In this document: positions 4,255-33,367 of the stretch, piece by piece
Layout: every line of letters begins with the position of its first letter
Position numbering within the stretch: the stretch's first letter is position 1
Assembly (NCBI GenBank): GCA_029747585.1
Contig: JAPEVF010000500.1
Coordinates: 1-33,367, forward strand
Reading direction: 5' to 3'
DNA length: 33,367 bases
Origin: Pleurotus djamor
Taxonomy: Eukaryota > Basidiomycota > Agaricomycetes > Agaricales > Pleurotaceae
Made by a program: the position numbers and the translations under genes
Notes under the pieces: generated by a model
What the model was told of the DNA's origin: nothing
Database searches by the model: none
Seen by the model: only the letters and a program-made list of their open reading frames with translations

Positions 4255-5217
4255 CTACCACGTCTCGTACATTGCCAGACCGTCACGCCAACGCTGCTTT
4301 CTTTCTTCGGCGGTGGCAGGAGGGACGTCTTTCTCCATAAGAAAACCGTTGTCAACCCATCGAAAGAGCTCGCCACCGGTATACTGGGTGATTGAGTATC
4401 GAGTTTCATGAGAGGAAATCGGGGTATTGGAGTGGTACAAACTAGCAGAGGGAATGAGGACGGTGTAACCAGGTGGGAACTCAATGACTAGCTCCAAGTC
4501 CCAGAGGACGAGGTGTCCGCCTTTCAGGTGATCGTATTCACCCAAAGCGGTGATGGCGCACCAACCCCAAGCGAGGTTACAGACGTCGCGGTGCTTCTGG
4601 CAAACGGTCTGGGGACCAAAGTTGACTGTGAGGGATGCAAAGTCGCTACGTTTGAAGTTCCGTTTCAGGTGTGGGTGGTGTTCAACGACGGCATCGAGGG
4701 TTGAACGATAGTACCTTCCGAGATCGGGTGCGTGTTTATGGAGGAGGGAGCTCTGGAACTCAGCCAAAAATTGCAGCTTCCTTGACGCGGCAGTGGGTTC
4801 GGCATTCCCAGGTCGAATACTGGCGATCGTCGTCGCCGCGAGGAGATGCAACGAGCTGCTGTATCGGGAAAAATTAATGCGGTGGAAAAGACGAGGCCCT
4901 CAAACTAGAACCGACGGTCATTTTTGCCATCACCGTTGTTGCAGTACGGTTCGAGGGACTCAAAGTCTACAGATGTCGTGACGTGTTGGGGAAATGCTCT
5001 TGCGGAAAGTCCGCCACCTGATTGGGGAAAGTGAGCATGCGTACGCATGGAGTGGAACGTATGCCTCATCACCTGGGGGTCGATGGGGACGGATTCCATG
5101 GGGTGAATGAGTCCGTTGGGCTTCACCTATGAAAGATGATAAGTACGAGTGACTCTAGAGAGGTGATGGAATCATTACGCAGGGAGGTACGGTCTTCAGT
5201 GGGCTGGTTAGCGACAT
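4255..5217 (-). CDS. TET/JBP-type 2-oxoglutarate/Fe(II) dioxygenase-like protein
   Basis: The main exon runs from about 4867 down to the stop at 4255. It encodes the double-stranded beta-helix core seen in many Agaricomycete accessory proteins: a VNFGPQTVC strand, an H-x-D iron motif in QKHRD, AWGWCAITALGEYD, GGHLVLWDLELVIEFPPG, a distal iron-binding His in SLYHSN, and the 2-oxoglutarate-binding Arg in ETRYSITQY. All expected metal and cosubstrate residues are present. Members of this group are thought to oxidise 5-methylcytosine in DNA, which would place it in the nucleus. A likely upstream exon ends at 5126 and a small start exon may lie at 5191-5217. The junction between the middle and main exons is not resolved. 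Placement in TET/JBP rather than another 2OG group is from memory of family motifs. Neighbours are also chromatin-type or basic proteins. Confidence 0.65.
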
Positions 5218-14165: not shown

Positions 14166-14476
14166 GGAAGTAGATCATTGCATCGGGTAATTAGGCAGGG
14201 ACTTTCTTGATTGAATTGTCATTGATACTCATTGGATCGTTTCAGGATTCGTACAGTTCATGGAAACAGGTGGCCGTCCAGAGCGACCCTTGGTCTGAAC
14301 GCGTCCTGACGAATCGCAGCGTATTCGCGCATCTACGTCTACCAGGGCCATCGGATTGCCACCCCGCGCCTGGGATGTTAGATCTCTGGATGCGTATCAG
14401 GTGTTCAGAGGTCGCACTTTCTACGCTGATCTGCGAGTTGAACAAGATATCGGTGCAAACATGGAGAGTATAAAAG
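14166..14476 (+). promoter_or_regulatory. Promoter of repeat-peptide gene 1, conserved with gene 2
   Basis: The stretch from 14166 to the start codon aligns with the region upstream of the second peptide gene. A 21-base block at 14166-14186 is identical in both. A TATA box (TATAAAAG) lies at 14469-14476, 141 bases before the start codon. A CTCAGCAGTGCTGGTCACTT block after the TATA box is also shared. The conserved block is a candidate activator site. Confidence 0.7.
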
Positions 14477-14616
14477 CGGCCTTGCTTCAGTGGTTACTCC
14501 CTCAGCAGTGCTGGTCACTTCTCAAGACATCTCCTCCAACCCACCTCGAGCCGGGCTCACCTCTCTCACACCACTCTTCTCTCTAACTAATCTCGTCCAT
14601 CTCCCCCTCTGCCACC

Positions 14617-15994
14617 ATGTATTTTTCTATGAAGTTCGCTGTTCTTGCTTCCTTGGCTTACGCTGCCTTGATCAGCGCGTCACCAACGCTGTAAGCTCTG
14701 CATCTCTCGTTGAACCCTGCGGCGATACTGATACCGCGTTTTTCTCTCAGAAACGTCGACGACGGCAGGGACCTCGAAGCTCGTGGTCCTCGCGGTCGAC
14801 CTACTGTATGTTCCTCTTTGCTAACGGATCTACAATACTCTGATCATTGCTTGTCTTCTAGCAACAAGAGTGCGAGGTCGCATGCACATTATCCGGATTT
14901 GTTGGTGCTCAGTGGCAACAATGCGTTCGCGACTGTATGGCTACGAACTATCCCTCGCCACCACCTTCTCCTCAAAATAAGAAGAAGGCAAAGGGAAAAC
15001 GCTACAACGAGGGACTTGAAGCTCGAGGACCTCGTGGGCGACCTACGGTAAGACATCCTTCTGACCTTTCCTTGTACATATAAGTTCCTGATTTCGCGAT
15101 CACTAGCAACAAGAATGCGAAGTTGCGTGTACGCTGTCCGGGTTTGTAGGAGCACAGTGGCAACAGTGTGTCCGGGATTGCATGGCTACGAATTACCCGT
15201 CGCCACCACCTTCCCCTCAAAACAAGAAGAAGGCGAAAGGAAAGCGTGAAGCCGAAGAGCTTGAAGCTCGAGGCCCTCGAGGACGACCTACGGTAACGCA
15301 CTCGACGATGAATCATTAGTTCGTCCCTAACCATGTCTAACAGCAACAAGAGTGTGAGGTTGCGTGTACCCTATCAGGATTCGTTGGTGCCCAGTGGCAA
15401 CAATGTGTCCGAGATTGTATGGCGACCAATTATCCTTCACCTCCACCTTCCCCACAAAATAAGAAAAAGGCAAAGGGCAAGCGTGAGGCCGAAGAGCTTG
15501 AGACGCGTGGACCCCGTGGTCGTCCAACGGTAAGCTTTTTCTCTTTCGAACCATCGTTTCGAATACTCATCCAGCCATGATGTTGCCAGCAACAAGAATG
15601 TGAAGTTGCTTGCACGCTCTCTGGTTTCGTCGGGGCTCAGTGGCAACAATGCGTGCGCGAATGCATGGCTACCAACTACCCTTCTCCCCCACCTTCGCCG
15701 CAAAACAAGAAGAAATCCAAGGGCAAACGTGACGCTGAAGAACTCGAAGCTCGTGGTCCCCGTGGTCGTCCTACGGTAGGAACTTTCCCCGACGTTCACT
15801 CTGAGTTCTCATCACTTAATCGGGATCAATAGCAACAAGAATGTGAGGTTGCCTGCACTCTTTCTGGGTTTGTAGGAGCCCAATGGCAACAATGCGTCCG
15901 CGACTGCATGGCCACGAACTATCCTACTCCCCCTCCTTCCCCTCAGAACAAGAAGAAGGCTAAAGGCAAGCGAGCTGAAGAAGATTCCGAGTAG
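14617..15994 (+). CDS. Secreted Kex2-processed repeat-peptide precursor, copy 1 (alpha-hairpinin-like, five units)
   Basis: Seven exons: 14617-14690, 14751-14805, 14862-15047, 15107-15292, 15344-15529, 15590-15775 and 15833-15994, giving 344 residues. Exon 1 encodes a secretory signal peptide (KFAVLASLAYAALISAS). Exon 2 encodes a leader ending LEARGPRGRPT. Each of the next four exons is exactly 186 bases (62 codons, phase 0 at both ends) and encodes one unit; the seventh encodes a shortened last unit. A unit has Cys at positions 4, 8, 21 and 25 (C-X3-C-X12-C-X3-C), a helix-friendly core, a PSPPPSPQN tail, KKKAKG and a Lys-Arg site, at residues 89-90, 151-152, 213-214, 275-276 and 337-338. After Lys-Arg comes EAEELEARGPRGRPT, or a variant, as spacer. 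The spacing fits two disulfides in a helical hairpin. Kex2 cleavage would release five near-identical peptides of about 60 residues. Function unknown: antimicrobial, inhibitor or signal peptide are possible. Confidence 0.85.
14862..15994 (+). repeat. Exon-intron tandem repeat array of peptide gene 1
   Basis: Five repeats of one exon plus one intron with a period near 240 bases. Exons are 186 bases (the last 162) and introns 51-60 bases. Intron sequences have diverged strongly, while the encoded peptide is almost constant. Confidence 0.9.
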
Positions 15995-16571
15995 ATATCG
16001 TCTTTGTTTACTTATCTACCAACACCGCAATTTCAGTATTTTTACCCCGACGTGCTCTATACTCATCCACGACAATATGTCCTATCTTGGCTACAGTCTA
16101 GCCTCCCGGCCTATGGAACCCCGGCTTATTCGCTCTGTCGACCAGTCTCGGGAATGAAAGCGCGAAGAAAACGTCAAGTCGTCAACAAGTGTCACGACAA
16201 CGACGAAAAGGTTCTGCATCGAGGAAACCCATCAAGACGCCGCCAGGGACAAGGAAGTGCCACATAGGCGAAACGCTTAAGTTGTTCGCCAAGCTGAGAC
16301 GGATAAGGCAGACCCACATTGCATCGTTTTTCTTCCATTGACTTGCCTTGTACATGTCCTGCAGAGAGTTAGGCCATGTGCTGCACATAGGGTGTTCACT
16401 GGCGCCGGAGACGACGTCGACGTGCAGTTCGGGGACGGGCGAATGGCCGCAGGCAAAGAAGGAAACGGCCACGTGAGCGGAGCACCAACGGAAAAGTTCC
16501 ACAGTTTACCGCCCCATCGCGTTACGTAATCATCAATCCTCCCCAAATCCCCAAAAGATTTTCTTTTTACA
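15995..16571. other. Intergenic between peptide gene 1 and the desaturase
   Basis: No supported gene. It holds the 3' region of the peptide gene and the promoter of the desaturase. Open segments on both strands look like chance. Confidence 0.5.
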
Positions 16572-16577
16572 TATAAG
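16572..16577 (+). promoter_or_regulatory. TATA-like element before the desaturase
   Basis: TATAAG lies in a T-rich context 92 bases upstream of the chosen start codon, the only AT-rich promoter-like element nearby. Confidence 0.35.
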
Positions 16578-16663
16578 AATGGTCGACGTTGGAGGGTCGC
16601 CGCCACGCTTCCGTCACTTTTTTCCTCCCCCCACCACCGTCCTCCGGGACTTCCTCATTCACG

Positions 16664-18252
16664 ATGTCCTCCCTCCCTCCTTCATCGCCGCCCAACGTCA
16701 AGAACGACGAGCCCGTACCCGCCGACATCGACATCCCCGACGACTACGTTACCTACACCCTCAAGAACCAAAAGCCCCTCCCACCTTTCCAATGGGCAAA
16801 CCTCCCTAACGAACTCAACTGGATTTCCTTCACCCTCATCACCCTCACTCCCATCATTGGCTTCGTCGGTGCCTACTTCACAAAGCTTCGATGGGAAACT
16901 TTCTTGTTTGCAGTATTCTACTACTTCGTTACTGGTTTGGGTATTACCGCAGGTTACCACAGATTGTGGGCTCACAGGTCCTACAACGCTGGCCTTCCGC
17001 TGCAGTACGCTTTGGCGTTGGCTGGCAGTGGTGCTTGCGAAGGTTCTATCAAGTGGTGGTCGAGAGGTCACCGCGCTCACCATCGTTACACCGACACCGA
17101 GCTCGACCCGTACAACGCGCACAAGGGTCTTTTCTACTCTCATGTCGGTTGGATGCTTGTAAAGCCTCGTCGCAAGCCCGGTGTCGCTGATGTGTCCGAC
17201 TTGAGCAAGAACGCAGTCGTCAAATGGCAACACAGGCACTACGTAAAGCTCATTCTCATCATGGGTTTCCTTTTGCCTTCTATCATCCCTTGGCTTGGCT
17301 GGGGTGATTTCCGTGGTGGTTTCATCTACGCTGGTGTGCTGAGATTGGTCTTTGTTCATCACGTACGTCNTTTCTCTTTTTCGCCTATTTTTCTTCAATT
17401 TTCTCACGTCAATTTCTTTGTTCTCCAGTCTACCTTCTGTGTCAACTCTCTCGCACATTGGCTCGGTGAAGCTCCCTTTGATGACAAGCATACTCCCCGT
17501 GATCATCTCGTCACTGCGCTTGTCACAATTGGAGAAGGTTATCACAACTTCCACCATCAATTCCCCATGGACTACCGTAATGCCATCAAATGGTATCAAT
17601 ACGATCCCACCAAGTGGTTCATTTGGTCTATGCAACAACTCGGTTTCGCCAGCCACTTGAAGAAGTTCCCCGATAACGAAGTTACGAAAGGTGTTTTGAC
17701 CATGCAGCTGAAGAAGCTCAGAGAGTTGCAAGAGAAGTTGGACTGGCCTAGCGAGAGCTGCAACTTGCCCGTCGTCAGCTGGGAAAGTTGTAAGTAATTT
17801 CTCGTAATGCCTTTTTATATCCTTCGTTGACCGGGGTATCTTTTCGTGATTAGATCAAGAAGAAGCTCAGAAGCGTCCTCTCATCCTTATCTCTGGTTTC
17901 ATCCACGATGTCTCTGACTTCATGGAGGAGCACCCTGGTGGTCGTCACCTTCTCGTCAAGATGATTGGCAAGGACGCGACTACGGCTTTCTTCGGCGGTG
18001 TCTACGATCATTCTAACGCTGCCCACAATGTATGACATTCCTGTTTTAGTTCTGTTCATATATGCTGATCCGCATTGCTCTTGTTAGCTTCTCTCGATGA
18101 AACGCGTTGGTGTTCTCCACGGTGGACAACCACATGCGTTGGAAGACAAGGCTATCCCACCATCACAACGTCTCAAGATCGCACGCTATAACGAGCTCAA
18201 CTCTGGTGGATCATGGAGCTCGGGGTCTGATGCCGAGGGTATGTTGGGTTGA
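16664..18252 (+). CDS. OLE1: Stearoyl-CoA (acyl-CoA) delta-9 desaturase with C-terminal cytochrome b5 domain
   Basis: Four exons, 16664-17362, 17429-17789, 17854-18029 and 18088-18252, give 466 residues, the usual length for fungal Ole1. The enzyme introduces a cis double bond at C9 of stearoyl- and palmitoyl-CoA in the endoplasmic reticulum membrane. The three histidine boxes are present: HRLWAH at 99-104, HRAHH at 136-140 and HNFHH at 272-276, with hydrophobic membrane segments between them. The C-terminal cytochrome b5 domain starts near residue 354 and has the haem-ligand HPGG motif at 380-383; it supplies electrons to the di-iron site. An upstream in-frame ATG exists at 16589, but the start at 16664 gives the usual N-terminus. 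The N at 17370 falls in the first intron. This looks like an ordinary housekeeping gene inside an accessory region. Confidence 0.95.
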
Positions 18253-20969: not shown

Positions 20970-23900
20970 CTATGGCGCTACGGGGAATCCTGCGGCCCTC
21001 ATCATGCAACGGTAAGGCATCTGCCATTGCGTATTCCAACCTTCCTTATGATGCAGTGACAGTGCTTCAAGTTTCCAAAACCTCAATTCCAGGGCTACCA
21101 CTCCACCGGGGCGGATGACGACAAGCTGCGCACCATAACCATCATACTGGATGGTACGGCATTCCCCATGGTAAGTACTCGGGATCTGGACGGCGTAGAA
21201 TCTACGCAATCTGTCCCCTAGCCATAATCCCTTGAAGTTGTAGGAAGGGTGTGGGGACTTGTCGAGCACGGAAGGTAGTACTTCATTCCCTGGAACACTC
21301 TTAATTGTTTTGAGTTCCCATTCAACAATATAGTATCGTCGCGGACATCCGATCCCTAGGTATATAGTTCGACCATCTGGCGAAACGCTTAGATCCCACT
21401 GCAACGAGAGTGTGTCAAGCCACTCCTTGTTGACACCTTCGTCAGACTCCGGTATTCCCAAGTGGCTCAGGCTCAAGGAGGACGTTTCTTGAGTAATGGT
21501 GTTGACCAGGCTCATGTTGGTGCCATAAAACAGTTGCTCTCGAGTTAAGGTGTCGTCCTTTGCGCGGGATCGCCTGTGTCGATACACTAAAGCAATCCAT
21601 GTCCAGCCTGAGCTGCATGCGATACCTTGCAGTATCAGATTTGGACCCTCGCAGTTGACAGTGGCCAGAAGGCGGTCATCACTTAGGCTCCAAATAGACA
21701 ATGGGGCAACTCTCTGAGGTCGAGTAACTAATAGCTGAGAGTCCTGAAAGATCCAAGTGCGCAATGATTTGGAGAGATGACTTGGTTCGATGCCGGAGGC
21801 CTGGTGCAAGGGGGCTGGGTGTTGACTAACATCCCATAATTGAACATCCCCATGGCTATTTCCAGAGCCCAGCATCCTGCCATCCGGGGAGAAGGCAAGA
21901 GAAACCAGGTTGTCATTGCCATTGAAAATGGCTAGGCAGCTTTTGTCTTGAATTGACCACAGGCGTATCGTGTGATCGTCTGACCCAGACGCAATGATAG
22001 TGCAGGAAGGATTGACTGCGAGAGTAGTTATTGACGCGGTGTGGCCATTGAATATATGGAGACATTGTCGAGTGTCAACATGCCAGAGATGAACATTGTT
22101 ACTGTCAATGCTATTGGAGACAAGGAGGTCCGGTCGCTGAGCACGAGGGAGGAATTTTACAGTGGTGTTGTGGGAGGACGGGCTATGGTTCGATGCTCCG
22201 TGGACCGCTAGTTCTTTCCAAATGGATCCTGATATCGTGTCGTAGATTATAATCCTATGCTCTACGACTACGGCAAGATATCGACCATCTGCCGACCAGT
22301 CGAGATCGTGACTGGAGTGTGACCATGATTGCAAAGTTTGTCCGTCTAGATCAAGAATCTGAGTAGCAGTGTATGGGAGGATCATCGCAACTCTCTGAGG
22401 AAACACATTTGAGGTGCGAGACACAGCCAACTTGTTGACGTCCCATGGCAAGTCAGTAGTTTTTAAACATGCTCCCGTCATGACATTCCAGATCTTCAGC
22501 GCCTTATTAGGAGATACAGAGATGATCCTATCATCTGAGAGAAATTGGTGGGCAGAAACCCAATCATCATGATCAGAGAGCTTGCGGAGGAGCGCCCCAT
22601 TGTTGGAATCCCAGATTTTGATGTGCTCATCGCCACCTGCGGAAGCTATCCACCGACCATTGGGAGAGAATGTTACCCGCGGGAAATCGTGGCGCATCAT
22701 ACGGAGACATGGTCCCCATGTCTCATCACGACCGGCAAGAATGTTGACGGTAGGAGGATCACTATCTTGATATGGGTACACCTCTCGAAGAAGACATGTG
22801 GATGGCGTGAACTCCAGTGCTGAAGTATGAATCCAGAATGGACATTCCTTGATACAATCCATGAAGCTTGAGACAAATCGGTAGCCATCTTGGAGCAACA
22901 TGTGCATCTTGTCATCACCCTGTTAATGCAATAAATGGGCTTGAATCACCCCAACGACGCCAAGCTCACCTTGTACCAGTCCAGAGCCAGGTTAAGCAAT
23001 GTTACAGCCTCTTCAATCCGACTCATCATCGCCAGGGCTTCCATCCAATTGAGCATCTGTGTTTCCGTGAACTCCTTCAAAAGCTCCATGATTTCTGTGG
23101 TTGACACGGTTTTGCTAAGGTGAAAAGACCAATGAAGGCAAGCATATTGAACATGAGGATGGAGTGAGACAGCCACTCGTTCGTTCAGATCCTCGATCAG
23201 GTCTATGGATATCAAAGGCTGTGCAAGGTCACATATATTCCTTTTCAGATTGTTCTCATGGAGCAGGACTTTCAGGCAGCGTATAGCAAGGTGGTCATGG
23301 CCGCGAAAGGATAGACTGTCACTGATCCTAGGTACACGGCACCTAGTGGAATCTGCGAGAAACTGGGGGAAACTGGCGTGCAGGAGGCGTATGGGTTGAT
23401 TCGTGTCAAACGTCAAGACGGAACGAAGACGCTCCAGTATCTCTTCTAGAGTTGTGAAGCGGAGCTCCAAAAGCTCGCAGAGGGATACCGGGGTCAACTG
23501 GTCGCGAAGAGCTGCAAGGGCCCCTAGGATCACTGGTATTGAGGGCCCAAGTCAGGATGACGCATCATGTCATCTGAGAAGGCATTGACAAGGACGATCT
23601 TGTAAAGGACGTCTAACGCATTGACGTTCAAGCCATGATCAAGGATCAGCCCCAAAGTCCGGCGCAAGTCGCGTCTGTATTGGTGAAGAAATTCAAGACA
23701 AGTGGAGGCGTAGATGAAGAGGCCGTCAGCAGCATCCGTGAGCCGTTCGATAGCATCGGATTGGATCGCCATCATTGTTTTCATGATTCCAAGTTCCCCT
23801 AGTCGAGATTCAATAAAAAGCTTGATGTCACCGCGCAGGATGGGGGTCGGGATGTGATGTAATTGGAATGGCTCTGGTTCCGACTGCCATTCAACCGATG

Positions 23901-25273
23901 CGAAAGCGTCTTGGATATGGTACTCTGGACGAGTGGTGAGGAAGAGTCGAAGGGGGAAACGGAGGGAACGCATGCGTTTCAGTAGCAAGTACAGCAATTC
24001 AGGAACCTGATCTTGTTCGTTGCATTCATCGAGAGCGTCGAGGACGAAAACAATGGGTCGCCGTGGCCACTGATCCTCCGATACCAGTCTCAGCGGTTCT
24101 ACGATCAGTTCATCCAGAGCGTACGATAGGTGTTGTGTATTGCCATCCTTTCGATGGGTCGAAATGGCTTCCGCTATCAATGGCGCCAAAGGTTGATGAT
24201 AGCGAGCCAGCTGAACAGCCAGTGTTGGGAATACATGTCTAGTTGCGGAAAGCTCTTCGATACCTCGTTCGAAGAAGAACGATCCGCCCAGAGCACCTGC
24301 TTTGTCGAGAATCTTGGCGACCTGAACAGCGATCGTCGACTTCCCAGTTCCAGCTGCGCCAACGAGCACGAAGATACGAGCATTCGCTTGAGCACCACCC
24401 TTTCCACCTCCCATAGACCAATCCTCAATGTCCTTCAGTAGCTCCGTTCTTGTTCCCTCCAGCCACTTGCTCTTCCGACCGTTTACGGGGGCTCTGTATC
24501 CTGCATCGACAGTCTTGATACTACTCAGATTGCGCTCCAGTTCGGCTATTTGCGTCGTCTTGATGATTTCATTCACCACCATCTCGATGCTGATCGTGCC
24601 TTGTAGATATGTAATCGAACCTCGGACGGATCGCATGTTTATAGTGAATAAGTGCTGACCTGGAATCGTGATTTTGCCTGGAGAACTTGATCATTGAGAG
24701 ATTTAAGGGTGGTTGCATCCTCGCTGCTCCGGAGAAATCGTTGGATCGAGTTTCCTTTTGATAACTTTCGACCCTCTCTCAAGATCTCATTGATGTTGCT
24801 AGGAGGAATAATCATTAGACGCATCGGGATGACTAACAACGTACATACAATGCGAGCTTCTTGACGCGGTCTGAGAGACTTTGAGAGCGCTTCAAAGCCG
24901 CTGCTGCTGCTTGAGGGTCACCGCTAGTGGATAGGTCGACGTCCACTTGTCTATGGATCTTGTCCGTCGTGGATTCCAGAAACACCACAAGGCTTTCGAG
25001 GCTCTGGGCTAGCTGTAGACATTCGGCTGAGTTATTCCGCGTTTCCTTTTGAACAAAGTCAGTTTCGAGGCCGCTGTGAATCACTCAAGCAGATCGCTCG
25101 AGAGTCTGACTCACCTGTACCATTTCCACGAGTTTCAGCAGTGTTGACGCTACCACCGACAATCCCGGGATGGGCGCGAGTGATAACGGGCCCTCTGCAT
25201 GGCTCAGAGTGGTTGCAGAGGCGGAGAGTAATTTGTCTATGAGTTCCCTCCTCTGACTAGAGCGAGACATCAT
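20970..25273 (-). CDS. NACHT-WD40 NLR-like protein, probably disrupted copy
   Basis: Exons by comparison with the plus-strand paralogue: 25115-25273, 24849-25045, 24660-24798, about 22970-24606 and 20970-22919. The N-terminal domain has the SLAPIPGL motif and predicted helices of the MLKL-type four-helix-bundle/HeLo-like group common before Agaricomycete NACHT domains. The NACHT domain has Walker A (VGAAGTGKST) and Walker B (FVLDALDECNE). The last exon encodes about 649 residues of WD40 repeats and is intact. Two defects are seen. The acceptor AG before the NACHT exon, present in the paralogue, reads TAT here, and I found no in-frame substitute. One base is missing near 23545, which shifts the frame after HPDLG. 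The second could be sequence error. If both are real, the copy is a pseudogene or gives separate shorter products. Fungal NLRs of this layout act in non-self recognition and cell death. Confidence 0.75.
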
Positions 25274-25804: not shown

Positions 25805-26942
25805 CTATTCAGAATCTTCCTCAACACTTCGCTTTCCCTTTGCCTTCTTCTTGTTTTGAGGGGAAGGTGGAGGGGTCGGGTAGTTCGTAGCCATGCAATC
25901 GCGAACACATTGCTGCCACTGGGCACCGACAAACCCAGAGAGCGTGCAAGCAACCTCGCATTCTTGTTGCTATTCGTCGCGCGTGGTTCAGAAATATTCA
26001 AAGTTAATGTTGGGATGGGGACTTACTGTGGGACGACCACGGGGACCACGAGCCTCGAGTTCCTCTGCTTCACGCTTGCCTTTGGCTTTCTTCTTGTTTT
26101 GAGGGGAAGGCGGGGGAGTAGGATAGTTGGTAGCCATGCATTCGCGGACACATTGTTGCCACTGAGCACCTACGAAGCCAGAGAGCGTGCAAGCCACTTC
26201 ACATTCTTGTTGCTAACAAAGTTATCGTTGGATAAGCATCATAGACGATGATTTGAGTAAATGGAGAGAGACTTACCGTAGGACGACTACGGGGTCCACG
26301 AGTCTCGAGTTCTTCAACCTCGCGCTTGCCCTTCGCTTTTTTCTTGTTCTGCGGGGAAGGTGGTGGCGAAGGATAGTTTGTCGCCATACAATCTCGCACG
26401 CATTGTTGCCATTGGGCACCAACGAATCCAGATAGAGTACAAGCAACCTCGCACTCTTGTTGCTGTTGGCGTGGTTAGCAATGACACGATGCAACATCGT
26501 TGAGTGTAGCTCACCGTAGGTCGTCCTCGAGGGCCTCGGGTTTCTAGTTCTTCGGCTTCACGCTTTCCTTTTGCCTTCTTCTTGTTCTGAGGAGAAGGCG
26601 GTGGCGACGGGTAGTTAGTCGCCATGCAATCCCGAACACACTGTTGCCATTGTGCGCCTACGAATCCCGAGAGTGTACAGGCGACTTCGCATTCTTGTTG
26701 CTATTGAACGCGTAAAAGTGAGAACAATGGAAGTGAGAGTCGGAGGGAAGTCCTACAGTGGGTCGTCCTCGAGGCCCACGAGCCTCGAGTCCAAAGTTAT
26801 TGCGTTTTCCCTTGGCTTTCTTTTTATTCTGAGGAGAAGGCGGTGGTGAAGGGTAGTTCGTAGCCATACAGTCCCGAACACATTGCTGCCACTGGGCACC
26901 AACGAATCCGGACAGTGTACATGCGACCTCGCATTCTTGTTG
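25805..26942 (-). repeat. Exon-intron tandem repeat array of peptide gene 2
   Basis: Five exon-intron repeats with a period near 240 bases, the same unit as in gene 1. Some exon pairs in this copy are closer to copy 3 than to each other. Confidence 0.85.
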
Positions 26943-27193
26943 CTGGAAGACAGCACAATGATCAGGAGGTCATCATTGGCGGAAGGCAAGGCCGAACATA
27001 CCGTGGGCCGACCACGAGGACCACGAGCTTCAAGGTCCCCACCATCTTCGACATTTCTGAGAGATAGAAAACACAGTATCAGCATTGTTGTTGATAACAA
27101 TTAGAAATACGAAGCTTACGGGGTAGGTGATGCGTTGATCAAAGCAGCGTAGGCCATAGAGGCGAGAATGGTGAACTTCAAGGAGAAGTACAT
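25805..27193 (-). CDS. Secreted Kex2-processed repeat-peptide precursor, copy 2 (alpha-hairpinin-like, five units)
   Basis: Seven exons on the minus strand: 27120-27193, 27002-27056, 26757-26942, 26515-26700, 26277-26462, 26027-26212 and 25805-25969, giving 345 residues. Exon lengths are 74, 55, four of 186 and one of 165, matching copy 1 exon by exon. The signal peptide is KFTILASMAYAALINAS; Met-5 of copy 1 is Leu here, which supports the first ATG in both. All five units keep the C-X3-C-X12-C-X3-C core and the Lys-Arg site. Unit 1 has NNFGLEARGP after Lys-Arg where later units have EAEELE or EVEELE; unit 3 carries an Arg-Pro-Arg-Ser-Arg variant in the linker, and unit 4 has Glu for Asp in the CVRxC segment. 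The protein ends SVEEDSE after the last Lys-Arg. It shares its promoter with copy 1. Confidence 0.85.
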
Positions 27194-27333
27194 CGTGATA
27201 AATTGGCGAGAATACAGAAGAGAGCGGTGAAAGAGGTGGTGCGCGAGAGGTGAGCTCAGCTCGAGGAGAGTTGTAGGAGTTGTGTTGAGAAGTGACCAGC
27301 ACTGCTGAGGAACCAACCACCCAAGGCGACCTG

Positions 27334-28472: not shown

Positions 28473-31400
28473 ATGTCTACCCAGAGGAAGGAACGCATAG
28501 ACAAGCTGCTTTCCGCTTCAGCATGTTTTCTGGACTTCGCCGAATTCCCGCTATACCTCGCGCCGATCCCAGGTTTACCCGCGGCAACGTCGGCGTTGCG
28601 AAAACTCGTCACCATGGTACAGGTGAGTTCACATCTTGAATTCAATGCACAGTCCAAAGCGAACCTCACTTGACTGAAGGAAACCCGGACTAATTCAGCG
28701 GAGTGCCTACACCTAGCCGAGAGTCTTCAAGATCTCGTGAACTTCCTGGAAGAATTTCAGAAGCAGGTCAAGGACGACCTGTCGAATAGCGGGGACCCTC
28801 AGGAGGCAACAGCGGCCTTGCAGCGATCTCAGTCACTCTCAGATCGCGTCAAGAATCTCTCTTTGTATGTATATATTATAACTTCAACACGAACGCGACA
28901 CACCTGCCTACTGTAGTGACATCAACGAAATCTTGAAAGAAGGTCAAAAGTTAAGAGAAGGGCGCACTATCCATCGATTCATCCGAGGGGGCGAAGATGC
29001 TGCCACTCTGAAGTCGCTCAACGATCGAGTCCTAAAAGCACATATGCGATTTCAGGTCAGTGTCTCTGAAACATCAACCTGTGACCATGCTGAACCTCGG
29101 CTGCTATCAGTTACAAGGCTCAATCAGCATCGAGATGGTAGTGAATCAAATATTCAAGGCCGCGCAAATGGCCGAGCTGGATAGCATTGAGTCCGTTGAC
29201 GCGGGGTACAGAGCACGGAAGAGCAAGTGGTTAGAAGGAACAAGGACTCAACTGCTGGCAGATATTGAGGATTGGTCAACTGGACGTGGAAAAGACGACG
29301 CTCGAGCGAAGGCTCCCATCTTCGTGCTTGTTGGAGCGGCTGGGACTGGAAAGTCTACGATTGCCGTCCAGGTCGCGAAGACCTTGGACAACGAAGGTGC
29401 TCTAGGTGGATCCTTCTTTTTCGAACGAGGCATCGAGAAAATTTCCGCGACCCGATTTGTCTTCCCCACTCTCGCTGTTCAACTGGCACGTTCTCACAAG
29501 AAGTTGGCTCCGTACATCGTCAAAGGGATATCAAAGCATCGGCAGAGGGGAAACCAACAATACATGTCGTATGCTCTTGATGAACTTATCATAGAGCCAC
29601 TGAAGCGAGTTCCTAAAGAACAATGGCCACTTCGACCGATCATTTTCGTACTCGACGCCCTCGATGAATGCAATGATCAAGATCAAATCCCTGAAATGCT
29701 GTATCTGCTACTCAAGCGCATACGTTCCCTCGATTTTCCTCTTCGGCTCTTCCTCACCACTCGTCCCGAATATCGTATCCGAGAGGTGTTCGACTCCATA
29801 GAATGGCAGTCGGAACCCGACCCGTTTCAATTACACTCTATCCCGACCAGCACTGTCCGCCATGATATCAAGCTCTTCATAGAACATCGGTTGAAGGAAA
29901 TCGGTATCATTGAACGTATCAAAGGCATTCGGGACGATGCTATCGACGAACTCACGGATGCCGCTAACAGACTCTTCATCTACGCTTCCACATGCCTCGA
30001 GTTTCTCAACGAACACAAGGCCAATTTAGGCCGGACCTTAGAGCTCATTCTGAGCCATCGCCTAAAGGTCAGCGCCTTGGACAACCTCTACAACTTTGTT
30101 CTCGAGAATGCCTTCCCGGAGGACGCGATGTGCCATCCTGATTTGGAACTCTCGGTACCAACTGTTCTGGGCGCTCTCGCCGTTCTTCAAGATCAGTTAT
30201 GCCCAAAATCTCTCAGCGACCTTTTGGCACTTGAAGACTCGATTACGCGTCAGATACTGGATCGTCTGCGGTCGATTCTGACGTTTGGTACCGATGTTGA
30301 ACCAATCAGCCTCCTGCATGCGAGTTTCCCTCAATATCTCGCGGACCCTCGAAGATGCCGCATTCCCAGTATCCGTGACAGCCCTTCCTTCCGTGGCCAC
30401 GACTGCCTCGCTGCTCAGTGCCTGGAGACCCTACAGTACGGCAATACTCTGAAGAGGAATATATGTAACCTCGAGGATCCTTTGGTTTTCAGAAATGAGA
30501 TCCTCGACTTGGATAAACGTCTGAGCACCTCACTCCCTTCCCATGTCCAATATGCCTGCCTTCACTGGTCTGTCCACCTCAGCGACTCCTTGCCATCGTC
30601 GAAGAGAACGAACCTCTTGAAGGAATTTGCGGAGACAAAGTTGCTCAATTGGATGGAAGCGCTGGCCATGATGGGGCGAGTCGAAATGATTGTTGCCGCG
30701 CTTAACCGTGTTTTGAAGTGGTACAAGGTACGTTTGAGTGCGTTGGTGAATCTCAGACCCATTGATGATACTACTCTATTAGCTAGACGACGACACCCGA
30801 GCACTGTTACACGATGGCCTCAGATTCATCTCAGCTTTCATGGCTTGTATCCAGACATGCCCATTCCATATCTACACTTCGTGTCTGGCTTTCACGCCAT
30901 CTAAGTGCCTCCTCCGGCAGGTCTATCTACGTCGAGAGGATTTTCTTCCTACTGTTGATGTACCCGTTGGGCTTGACGAGACTTGGGGAGCCTGTCTACG
31001 TGTGATGGAAGGACACATCAAACCGGTAGACAGTGTAACGTTTTCGCCCAACGGTCAATGGATCGCTTCGGCCAGCGATGACAAGAACATCAACGTCTGG
31101 GACGCCCATAGTGGTGTTCTCCTCCGAACCCTTTCTGGCCATACAGAATGCGTCTCTAATTGCATATTCTCTTCAGACGATGAGATCATTTCCGGCTCAG
31201 TCGATGGGACGATCAGGTTTTGGAATATGAAAACAGGGATACCTTCAAGGGTTATTCATTTGGACGATGAAGACATCCCAGTCCTGTTTGTTGCTTTATT
31301 ACCTACCTCGAACACCCTCGATGTTCCTCGGAGAATCGCAGTCATACGTCCCCTGCACAATCTCCAAATTCTTGATATGGATGGCAGGCTCTTGACGCAG

Positions 31401-32666
31401 CGATCGTGGGATGGATCAACGGGTTGTTTGACGGTGCTGGACTGGTCGGCGGATGGTCGATATATTGCCATAGCACATGAGAAGACAATCATCCTCTACG
31501 ACACGATATCGTCGTGCATTTGGAAAGAACTAGTTGGTCATGAAGATGACGTACTCGACCTAAAGATGATATCTCAGCCTCGAATGGACCTCCTCGTGTC
31601 TAGTGGAAATGACTGCACTGTTCGACTTTGGAACTTGGAAACTCAAGAATGTGTCCATATCTTCACAGGCCACACCTCATGGGTCTCAGCTGTCGCGGTC
31701 GATCCTTCCTATGCCACCATTGCATCTGCATCGCAAGACGGCACGATTCGTCTGTGGTCGATTGAGCATAAGACCTGTCTGACCGTCTTTCCATGCAATT
31801 CCTCCCGGTCTCTTGCTTTCTCTCCAAATGGTAGGATGTTAGTCTCTGGACACATGGACTCTGTGATTCGGATATGGGATGTTGATCACCGCGCTGTCCT
31901 GCCCCAGGAATACACTAGCACCTTCAACCGAGAGGGTGTACTATGTACATTCTCATCCGACTGCCAGTTCCTGGCTGCTCAGGCTGAGCGCGGTGCTCCG
32001 ACAGTGGATGTATGGAGGTTGCGAGATGATCATTTTATAGCTACTATCAAACGGGAAAGGACACATTTTTCTGTTCGAAGCGTAGCTGCGAGTCCTGATA
32101 GTTCATGGGTGGCTATCGGGGAGGCGAGTCCGTCGGAGATGACCAGGAGTATTCAACTAACCAACACCCTCACCAAAGAAACATTCACCATCGCCTACAC
32201 GCATGCTAAAACAGAACATTGGAAATTGGGTGGTGTTTCTTCAGATGGACGGCGCATCTATCTACACGGATATGACTCACGATACCGTCGCATACGTTGG
32301 AAGATCTTCAACCGGGACACAAAGCAGTTCGCTTGTGTGGGTAGCGATGAAGTACCTTTCGCGCGGAGCATCGACTGGTTGAACCCTTGCCTCCCTCAGG
32401 TCAATCAATCTGGATGGCTCGTGGATCGGCGGAGTCATCGCAACATAGCCTGGCTCCCAAGTGCCTACCGATGCTGGGGCTACGGAACTGAAACTTTGTT
32501 GATCTACCATGACGACTATTGCTCGAAGCTTCTTCTAATAAACGCCCAGAGAATAACTGTTTTGGACTTAAACAATAGGAAAAACGACAGCGGTGAAGCG
32601 GGTTCAGATCCTCACTGGCAGAACGCTTACCGTTGCGTAAAAAGGATCTTACCACATCTTCAATAA
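28473..32666 (+). CDS. NACHT-WD40 NLR-like protein, intact (1324 aa)
   Basis: Five exons, 28473-28622, 28680-28864, 28917-29055, 29111-30727 and 30783-32666, sum to 3975 bases in one frame. Residues 1-158 form a helical N-terminal domain (APIPGLPAATSALRKLVTMV) resembling the MLKL-type four-helix-bundle/HeLo-like domains of Agaricomycete NLRs and kinases, likely the membrane-acting effector. The NACHT ATPase follows, with Walker A GAAGTGKS at 233-240 and Walker B (FVLDALDE) with Asp-340, 343 and 344, then a helical C-terminal NACHT region. WD40 repeats (GHIKPVDSVTFSPNGQWIAS and others with WD or LW endings) run from about residue 770, and serve as ligand sensor in this class. The WD repeats have diverged from each other, unlike the highly identical repeats of het-gene NLRs. 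It is divergent from peptide gene 2 and convergent with peptide gene 3. It is paralogous to the minus-strand copy throughout. Confidence 0.85.
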
Positions 32667-33064: not shown

Positions 33065-33367
33065 CTACTCGAAGTCTTCCTCAACACTTCGCTTGCCCTT
33101 CGCCTTCTTCTTGTTTTGAGGGGAAGGTGGAGGGGTCGGGTAGTTCGTAGCCATGCAATCGCGAACACATTGCTGCCACTGGGCACCGACGAACCCGGAG
33201 AGCGTGCAAGCAACTTCACATTCTTGTTGCTATTTGTCGTGCGTGGGTTAGAACAATTCAAAGCTATGATTGGGGAGAGGCCTTACTGTGGGACGACCAC
33301 GGGGACCACGAGCCTCGAGTTCCTCAGCCTCACGCTTGCCCTTGGCTTTCTTCTTGTTTTGTGGTGA
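33065..33367 (-). CDS. Secreted Kex2-processed repeat-peptide precursor, copy 3, 3' part only (window edge)
   Basis: The last exon is 33065-33229 (165 bases, one unit ending SVEEDFE) and the previous exon is 33287-33367, cut by the window end inside the SPQNKKKAKGKR tail. The intervening intron is 57 bases, the same length and position as in copy 2, and is recognisably similar. By hand count the terminal exon differs from that of copy 2 at about ten of 165 positions, with a run of about 100 identical bases. The reading frame, splice phase, Cys spacing and Lys-Arg site agree with the other copies. The 5' exons lie outside the window. Confidence 0.85.

Follow-up and report, generated by a model that had tools for sequence, protein, structure and literature searches.

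Kex2-processed repeat proteins (KEPs) of fungi are defined by a signal peptide, repeats and Kex2 sites (excerpts of PMC6339444 and PMC7329392), and KEP-derived peptides, which are short (for example, SGVAADW), have been detected in fruiting bodies of Pleurotus ostreatus and P. eryngii (excerpt of PMC9769878). Alpha-hairpinins are described from plants, carry the pattern C-X3-C-Xn-C-X3-C with n mostly 11-13, and are known from multi-unit precursors (excerpts of PMC7191063 and PMC11591084). Little except the cysteines is shared across that family. The gene described here lies in a 33,367-nt stretch of DNA of the pink oyster mushroom, Pleurotus djamor (contig JAPEVF010000500.1, here C864; the whole stretch is termed the window), with its ATG at 14617 and its stop codon ending at 15994 on the forward strand. 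Like fungal KEPs, its precursor has a signal-like N-terminus, near-identical repeats and Lys-Arg between the repeats; like plant alpha-hairpinins, it has n = 12, a predicted helix-loop-helix and several modules per secreted precursor. The favoured reading, held with confidence slightly above even, is that five cationic peptides of ~52 residues, predicted to be helical hairpins, are freed by Kex2-type proteases from a one-exon-per-unit precursor, likely for defence.

Precursor layout and predicted processing

The gene model consists of seven exons and six GT-AG introns of 51-60 nt, giving a single 344-aa frame. Behind a hydrophobic N-terminus (MYFSMKFAVLASLAYAALISASP, with A-S-P; assessed by eye) that has a similar start in the paralogues, it encodes five C-X3-C-X12-C-X3-C units whose cationic, Pro-rich tails lead to Lys-Arg. 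Unit exons open with QQEC and all but the last close with GPRGRPT, the next intron being in phase 0. The elements of the gene are as follows:

14469..14476, +, TATA box TATAAAAG
14504..14520, +, family-specific 17-bp element AGCAGTGCTGGTCACTT, 35 nt after TATAAA
14617..14690, +, exon 1 of the gene model, hydrophobic signal-like N-terminus
14751..14805, +, exon 2, acidic pro-piece ending in LEAR (14773-14784), then GPRGRPT (14785-14805)
14862..15047, +, exon 3, unit 1: predicted hairpin, PPP-Lys tail, KGKR; at its end, spacer YNEGLEAR (15003-15026) and GPRGRPT of the next peptide (15027-15047)
15107..15292, +, exon 4, unit 2; spacer EAEELEAR (15248-15271)
15344..15529, +, exon 5, unit 3; spacer EAEELETR (15485-15508)
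15590..15775, +, exon 6, unit 4; spacer DAEELEAR (15731-15754)
15833..15994, +, exon 7, unit 5; its KR is followed by the acidic tail AEEDSE and the stop codon

A fungal secretory precursor of five units, with one exon per unit, Lys-Arg at the unit ends and the cysteine spacing of alpha-hairpinins, had been proposed in the initial annotation, and the gene model agrees on each count: the frame is intact once spliced, the four internal unit exons (exons 3-6) are exactly 186 nt apiece, KGKR is present in all five units and n is 12. NCBI annotates an equivalent model for P0001, a 345-aa paralogue with 92% identity. A repeat search of the gene returned five 201-nt copies, one of which is matched by the other four at 65-79% identity; as the copies are in register and further genes of the genome are built to this design, the pattern is not a product of chance. 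The gene layout, together with the family, selection and promoter pattern described below, is a solid fact of the sequence. An Rfam scan of 14400-16100 found no RNA elements.

Predicted processing sites were compared among 32 intact internal units from nine gene copies, a set that includes haplotype copies and omits units broken by N or by contig ends and all last units. Lys-Arg occupies unit positions 46-47 in 31 of them, and Leu-52 and Arg-55 of an L-x-x-R at 52-55 are invariant (32/32). The spacer around L-x-x-R is acidic and otherwise variable, with 23 distinct versions in the 32 units. Unit 1 of the gene is preceded by an L-x-x-R site only, that of exon 2. At the homologous position a true Lys-Arg (LSKR or VEKR) is found in the subtype on contigs C819 and C1273, and LEAR in Fistulina and in protein P0006. 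Since KR and L-x-x-R are near-invariant, the spacer is variable and its homologous position can be Lys-Arg, we predict that the spacer is excised and that cationic peptides of ~52 residues (GPRGRPT...KKKAKG) are released, which corrects the ~60-residue products expected initially. Cleavage at KGKR and L-x-x-R is regarded as a well-supported prediction; cleavage at single Arg is reported to be likely in KEPs of Coprinopsis produced in Pichia (excerpt of PMC9769878). Because the intron between GPRGRPT and QQEC interrupts the sequence of the predicted mature peptide, exon borders and peptide borders do not coincide.

Charge alternates along the precursor: the pro-piece carries -2, the mature units +6 (KR included), the spacers -1 to -3 and the C-terminus -4. 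The 52-residue peptide would have a net charge of ~+4 (~+6 with KR kept) and, when reduced, an average mass near 5634 Da, or ~4 Da lower with two disulfides. The LSKR subtype breaks this alternation, its C-terminus being +4, and the single-unit type has a very long Lys/Pro tail with a net charge of +12.8.

One match to the Kex2-type P-domain and a DPP-IV-type gene are present in the genome. A ladder of X-A/X-P dipeptides of the STE13 type was considered and rejected, as X-A/P occurs at positions 48-49 (A/P at 49) in 14 of the 32 units and at 50-51 (A/P at 51) in none. A dikaritin-type ribosomally synthesised and post-translationally modified peptide was also rejected: the genome has 37 matches to UstYa (DUF3328), and none was found on family contigs C864, C1306, C387, C1273, C819, C175, C1379 and C635, where contig ends limit the view. 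For C-terminal amidation at GKR, no match to Cu2_monoox_C was found in the genome, nor in the control genomes.

Predicted hairpin fold

Structure prediction and a fold search on one unit, as suggested by the initial annotation, were carried out. AlphaFold2 modelled the unit as a two-helix hairpin (helices 2-10 and 15/16-29) with pLDDT 84-93 over residues 1-30, and this fold is considered a well-supported prediction. Cysteines 4/8 and 21/25 on the antiparallel helices would fit disulfides 4-25 and 8-21. The alpha-hairpinin VBP-8 was the top-ranked PDB neighbour in all four fold comparisons, with weak scores, among the matches listed (five and three from Foldseek, eight and seven chains from VIA), lists which do not thereby exclude other families. 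The nearest solved folds among these matches were VBP-8 and the Pis v 3 and Ana o 1 leaders, all plant vicilin-buried alpha-hairpinins. PDB sequences were searched by phmmer with one unit and also with an eight-member profile; neither search picked up an alpha-hairpinin chain, and a match to Vicilin_N (E 0.014) was below its cut-off. The helical hairpin proposed initially is supported as a predicted fold; membership in the alpha-hairpinins is not established by a weak fold match with no sequence match.

Two other domain assignments were weighed. Small Tim chaperones (Tim8/13), which share a twin CX3C pattern, are mitochondrial, unlike this precursor with its signal-like N-terminus, repeats and Kex2-like sites; zf-Tim10_DDP scored 15.9 bits in P0021 against a cut-off of 22.3 and gave no match in P0011 and P0019, and this candidate was rejected. 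DUF4787 (PF16029) reached 34.9 bits against a cut-off of 27 in the whole precursor, a score summed over five partial stretches; a single unit gave 12.8 bits and single members a best E of 0.031.

Gene family, selection and promoter

The 55.9-Mb P. djamor assembly, in which two haplotypes are present, gave 87 matches at E up to 1 to the 62-residue unit, and the family comprises at least six subtypes in this genome. Besides genes of the focal type, those read were: single-unit genes whose Lys/Pro tail is long, with candidate models matching NCBI P0011 and P0016; diverged single-unit genes (C387:55k and 87k); genes of two or more units (P0008, P0018); five-unit genes with LSKR/VEKR on C819 and C1273; a four-unit gene with SKRDT on C1273; and a distant type at C1306:162k and on C1379. 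The focal gene has n = 12; n is 12-13 in the Fistulina and single-unit types, and genes of the LSKR and SKRDT types have 16. The spliced model of a diverged five-unit LSKR-type paralogue equals NCBI P0021 over 351/351 residues. NCBI model P0003, for the haplotype copy at C1306:184k, retains one intron, unlike the spliced model here. Introns are retained or the frame has slipped in database models P0003, P0009, P0010, P0018 and P0020, and for this reason KEP surveys built on proteomes would overlook such members or divide them wrongly.

Relatives were found in P. pulmonarius (P0004, P0005, P0007), P. ostreatus (P0009, P0017) and Fistulina hepatica (P0019), in protein searches that scored ~7,985 candidates each and from which absence in other fungi is not to be inferred. 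The JGI protein P0006 is a relative with three units, and P0011-P0016 and P0019 have one. Several retrieved models look garbled, with introns retained or exon parts lost. A search with the five-unit LSKR type gave only the P. djamor protein itself and one match at E 7.1.

Further family members and a haplotype difference were located in the window:

14994..15238, +, 245 nt (equivalent to one exon and one intron) missing, with the frame kept, in the four-unit counterpart at C1306:184k
25805..27193, -, second five-unit paralogue (unit exons 26757-26942, 26515-26700, 26277-26462, 26027-26212, 25817-25969)
27290..27306, -, exact 17-bp promoter element before the second paralogue
33065..33367, -, third paralogue, incomplete at the contig end (the last unit and a portion of the one preceding it)

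The window is 88-99.9% identical by segment to C1306 at ~184-199k, and unit number differs between the haplotypes: five in the focal gene, four in its counterpart.

All 32 internal units keep the four cysteines and Trp-18 without exception. Within genes, pN/pS is 0.015 in the hairpin, 0.032 in the tail, 0.053 in GPRGRPT and 0.286 in the eight-residue spacer; hairpin pS is 0.83-0.92, with 0.83 within genes, which places synonymous sites near saturation. Codon permutation in the eight genes with four or five readable units gave codon differences of 0.475-0.597 against an expected 0.571-0.615, with those of C1306_177k, C1306_156k and C1379 clearly below random (values as low came up in at most 2 of 1000 shuffles). 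The idea that codons of the units are over-divergent, as under selection against repeat identity, was rejected, the differences being at or somewhat below random. Among five non-allelic genes, same-position units of different genes are 0.826 alike and different-position units 0.795, a difference reached in none of 2000 permutations. Units within one gene are 0.811 alike, so a slight within-gene likeness is left. We conclude that the five-unit array predates most gene duplications, and that unit likeness is maintained by selection on the protein and not by recent copying.

The family is also marked by its promoters. TATAAA lies upstream of 18 of 19 family signal exons, the exception (C1306:153588) having TATATAAT and the motif with three mismatches. 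Genome-wide, AGCAGTGCTGGTCACTT occurs at 38 sites with up to two mismatches (18 exact, seven with one and thirteen with two), against eight for the reversed control. Every one of the 25 sites with no more than one mismatch is followed by a family gene, an association that is new here (the count includes haplotype copies, and independent loci are fewer), and the motif stands 34-36 nt after TATAAA in all 24 that have readable upstream DNA. Among the 31 of 38 sites examined, the other seven all being two-mismatch sites, 30 have a family unit within 700 nt downstream; at each of the 30 sites with upstream DNA at hand, TATAAA is found 34-36 nt before the motif. At C1273:22456-22472, TATA and motif (two mismatches) occur at the family spacing with no recognisable unit within 700 nt; this is perhaps a dead or very diverged family member.

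In ten representatives, the sequence between TATA and motif is much less conserved than the motif, and on this basis the motif appears to be selectively kept across subtypes whose units differ widely. Its presence before the distant type at C1306:162k supports the membership of that gene in the family. Judged by its distance from TATA, the motif is likely to be located at the transcription start. Shared regulation of the family is a well-supported prediction. A near-perfect inverted repeat (CAGCA-G-TGCTG, 14503-14513) is held in the motif, and a second (GAGCC-G-GGCTC, 14548-14558) has variants in many, not all, of the promoters compared; both are possible dimer binding sites.

Other genes were noted around the family. 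NACHT (NPHP3_N)-WD40 NLR-like genes are present in the window at 20970-24690 (-) and 29036-32666 (+) and on C1306 at 164-168k, 179-183k and 195-198k, alternating with peptide genes in C864/C1306, an arrangement that could be a fungal immune-receptor and peptide cluster. In the examined stretches of C387, C1273 and C819, tblastn found no such neighbours; a further NPHP3_N gene is located at C1273:78675, with a member of the family ~19 kb away. A functional link between the two is less favoured, and the alternation is probably explained by local block duplication, the simpler view. A fatty-acid desaturase gene adjoins the focal gene downstream (16577-17797, +; PF00487, 42.3 bits against a cut-off of 29.7), and an open frame at 4255-4899 (-) has a sub-threshold match to the Tet_JBP 2-oxoglutarate oxygenases (25 bits against 34.9).

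Possible function and comparison with known systems

In the reading favoured here, the TATA box and the 17-bp element at the likely start would drive transcription jointly with the paralogues, and the precursor would enter the secretory pathway by its hydrophobic N-terminus. The predicted antiparallel helices would then be locked by disulfides 4-25 and 8-21, and cuts after KGKR and after L-x-x-R, at the conserved sites, would remove the acidic spacer and leave GPRGRPT-hairpin-PPP-KKKAKG. Until they are processed, the cationic peptides may be masked by the pro-piece, the spacers and the C-terminus, all of them acidic (-1 to -4 each in the focal gene). Many identical copies would point to dose and not diversity, and the target would most likely be microbial or animal antagonists of the mycelium. 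Defence is the best guess at function, with about even confidence.

The peptides might instead be the fungus's own signals or developmental factors, as alpha-pheromones and perhaps other KEP products are. Cores frozen by purifying selection would suit a constant receptor, and mating factors occur among KEPs (excerpt of PMC6339444). A 52-residue cationic disulfide hairpin is, however, unlike the short linear KEP signals described, the sexual pheromones of Basidiomycota are a-type and not KEP-derived (same excerpt), and the STE13 ladder is missing, so that we regard this role as rather unlikely. Still less probable is a structural or surface role in the hyphal wall, with Lys-rich tails binding the wall as components comparable to the Ustilago maydis Rep1 repellents. 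Rep1 is a Kex2-processed basidiomycete repeat protein acting on hyphal walls, and the cationic Lys/Pro tails are kept in the present family and are very long in its single-unit type; yet Rep1 peptides form amyloid-like surface-active fibrils (excerpt of PMC6339444), and the unit here is hydrophilic (GRAVY -0.95) and predicted to be a compact helical hairpin.

Cleavage in this precursor is a prediction only, and the five-unit layout is kept in two subtypes, as might be expected of an uncut secreted protein of five domains with flexible basic linkers. Against this stand a spacer that varies except at L52 and R55, the dibasic site at the homologous place of another subtype, the differing unit number of the haplotypes and the single-unit relatives listed above; such a protein seems very improbable.

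Unlike the reported Pleurotus KEP peptides, which are short and linear, the cores here are predicted hairpins with four cysteines within ~52 residues, and the gene differs from those KEPs in its one exon per unit, its second, single-Arg site and its acidic spacer. The main text on P. ostreatus SSP1-6 (PMC5674062) contains no word beginning with 'cystein'. Literature text searched for QQECEVAC, RAECEGAC and TQQECEV gave no match, and no fungal hairpin KEP was found among the literature matches listed, although supplements of KEP surveys may already catalogue P. ostreatus members. The mushroom peptide cylindracin/Pri3 of Cyclocybe is similar in being Cys-rich and cationic behind an acidic pro-piece ending in a single Arg. 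It is antifungal, its pro-piece has a pI of 4.01, and the synthetic pro-piece left activity unaltered. Compared by description only, it differs in having eight cysteines in a single 95-aa protein for which the excerpt mentions no repeats (PMC11532979).

The present family differs from plant alpha-hairpinins in being fungal, in its Kex2-like sites and in that sequence homology was not detected. The alpha-hairpinin genes of wheat, chickweed and barnyard grass are intronless (excerpt of PMC7191063), in contrast to the six introns modelled here, and Lys or Arg occurs in the inter-helix stretch of 1 of 32 family units, compared with the Arg-bearing trypsin inhibitors among alpha-hairpinins. The system works like a KEP and resembles an alpha-hairpinin precursor; it is classed here as a KEP variant, with no claim that it is a member of the alpha-hairpinins. 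Somewhat short of even confidence, we propose tentatively that oyster mushrooms possess a fungal equivalent of the alpha-hairpinin arsenal of plants, in which charge-masked five-unit polyproteins with one exon per unit yield disulfide-locked helical-hairpin peptides in quantity, and whose copies and diverged subtypes are placed under one private TATA and 17-bp start-site switch that no other gene in the genome uses. The gene family sits in edible, culturable mushrooms. Its shared promoter signature offers an immediate means of finding out when the genes are expressed, and through it a possible defence arsenal of mushrooms can be tested. If the proposal is true, a disulfide-locked helical hairpin would join the products of fungal Kex2 repeat proteins, and the multi-unit hairpin precursors known from plants would have a fungal, probably independent, case.
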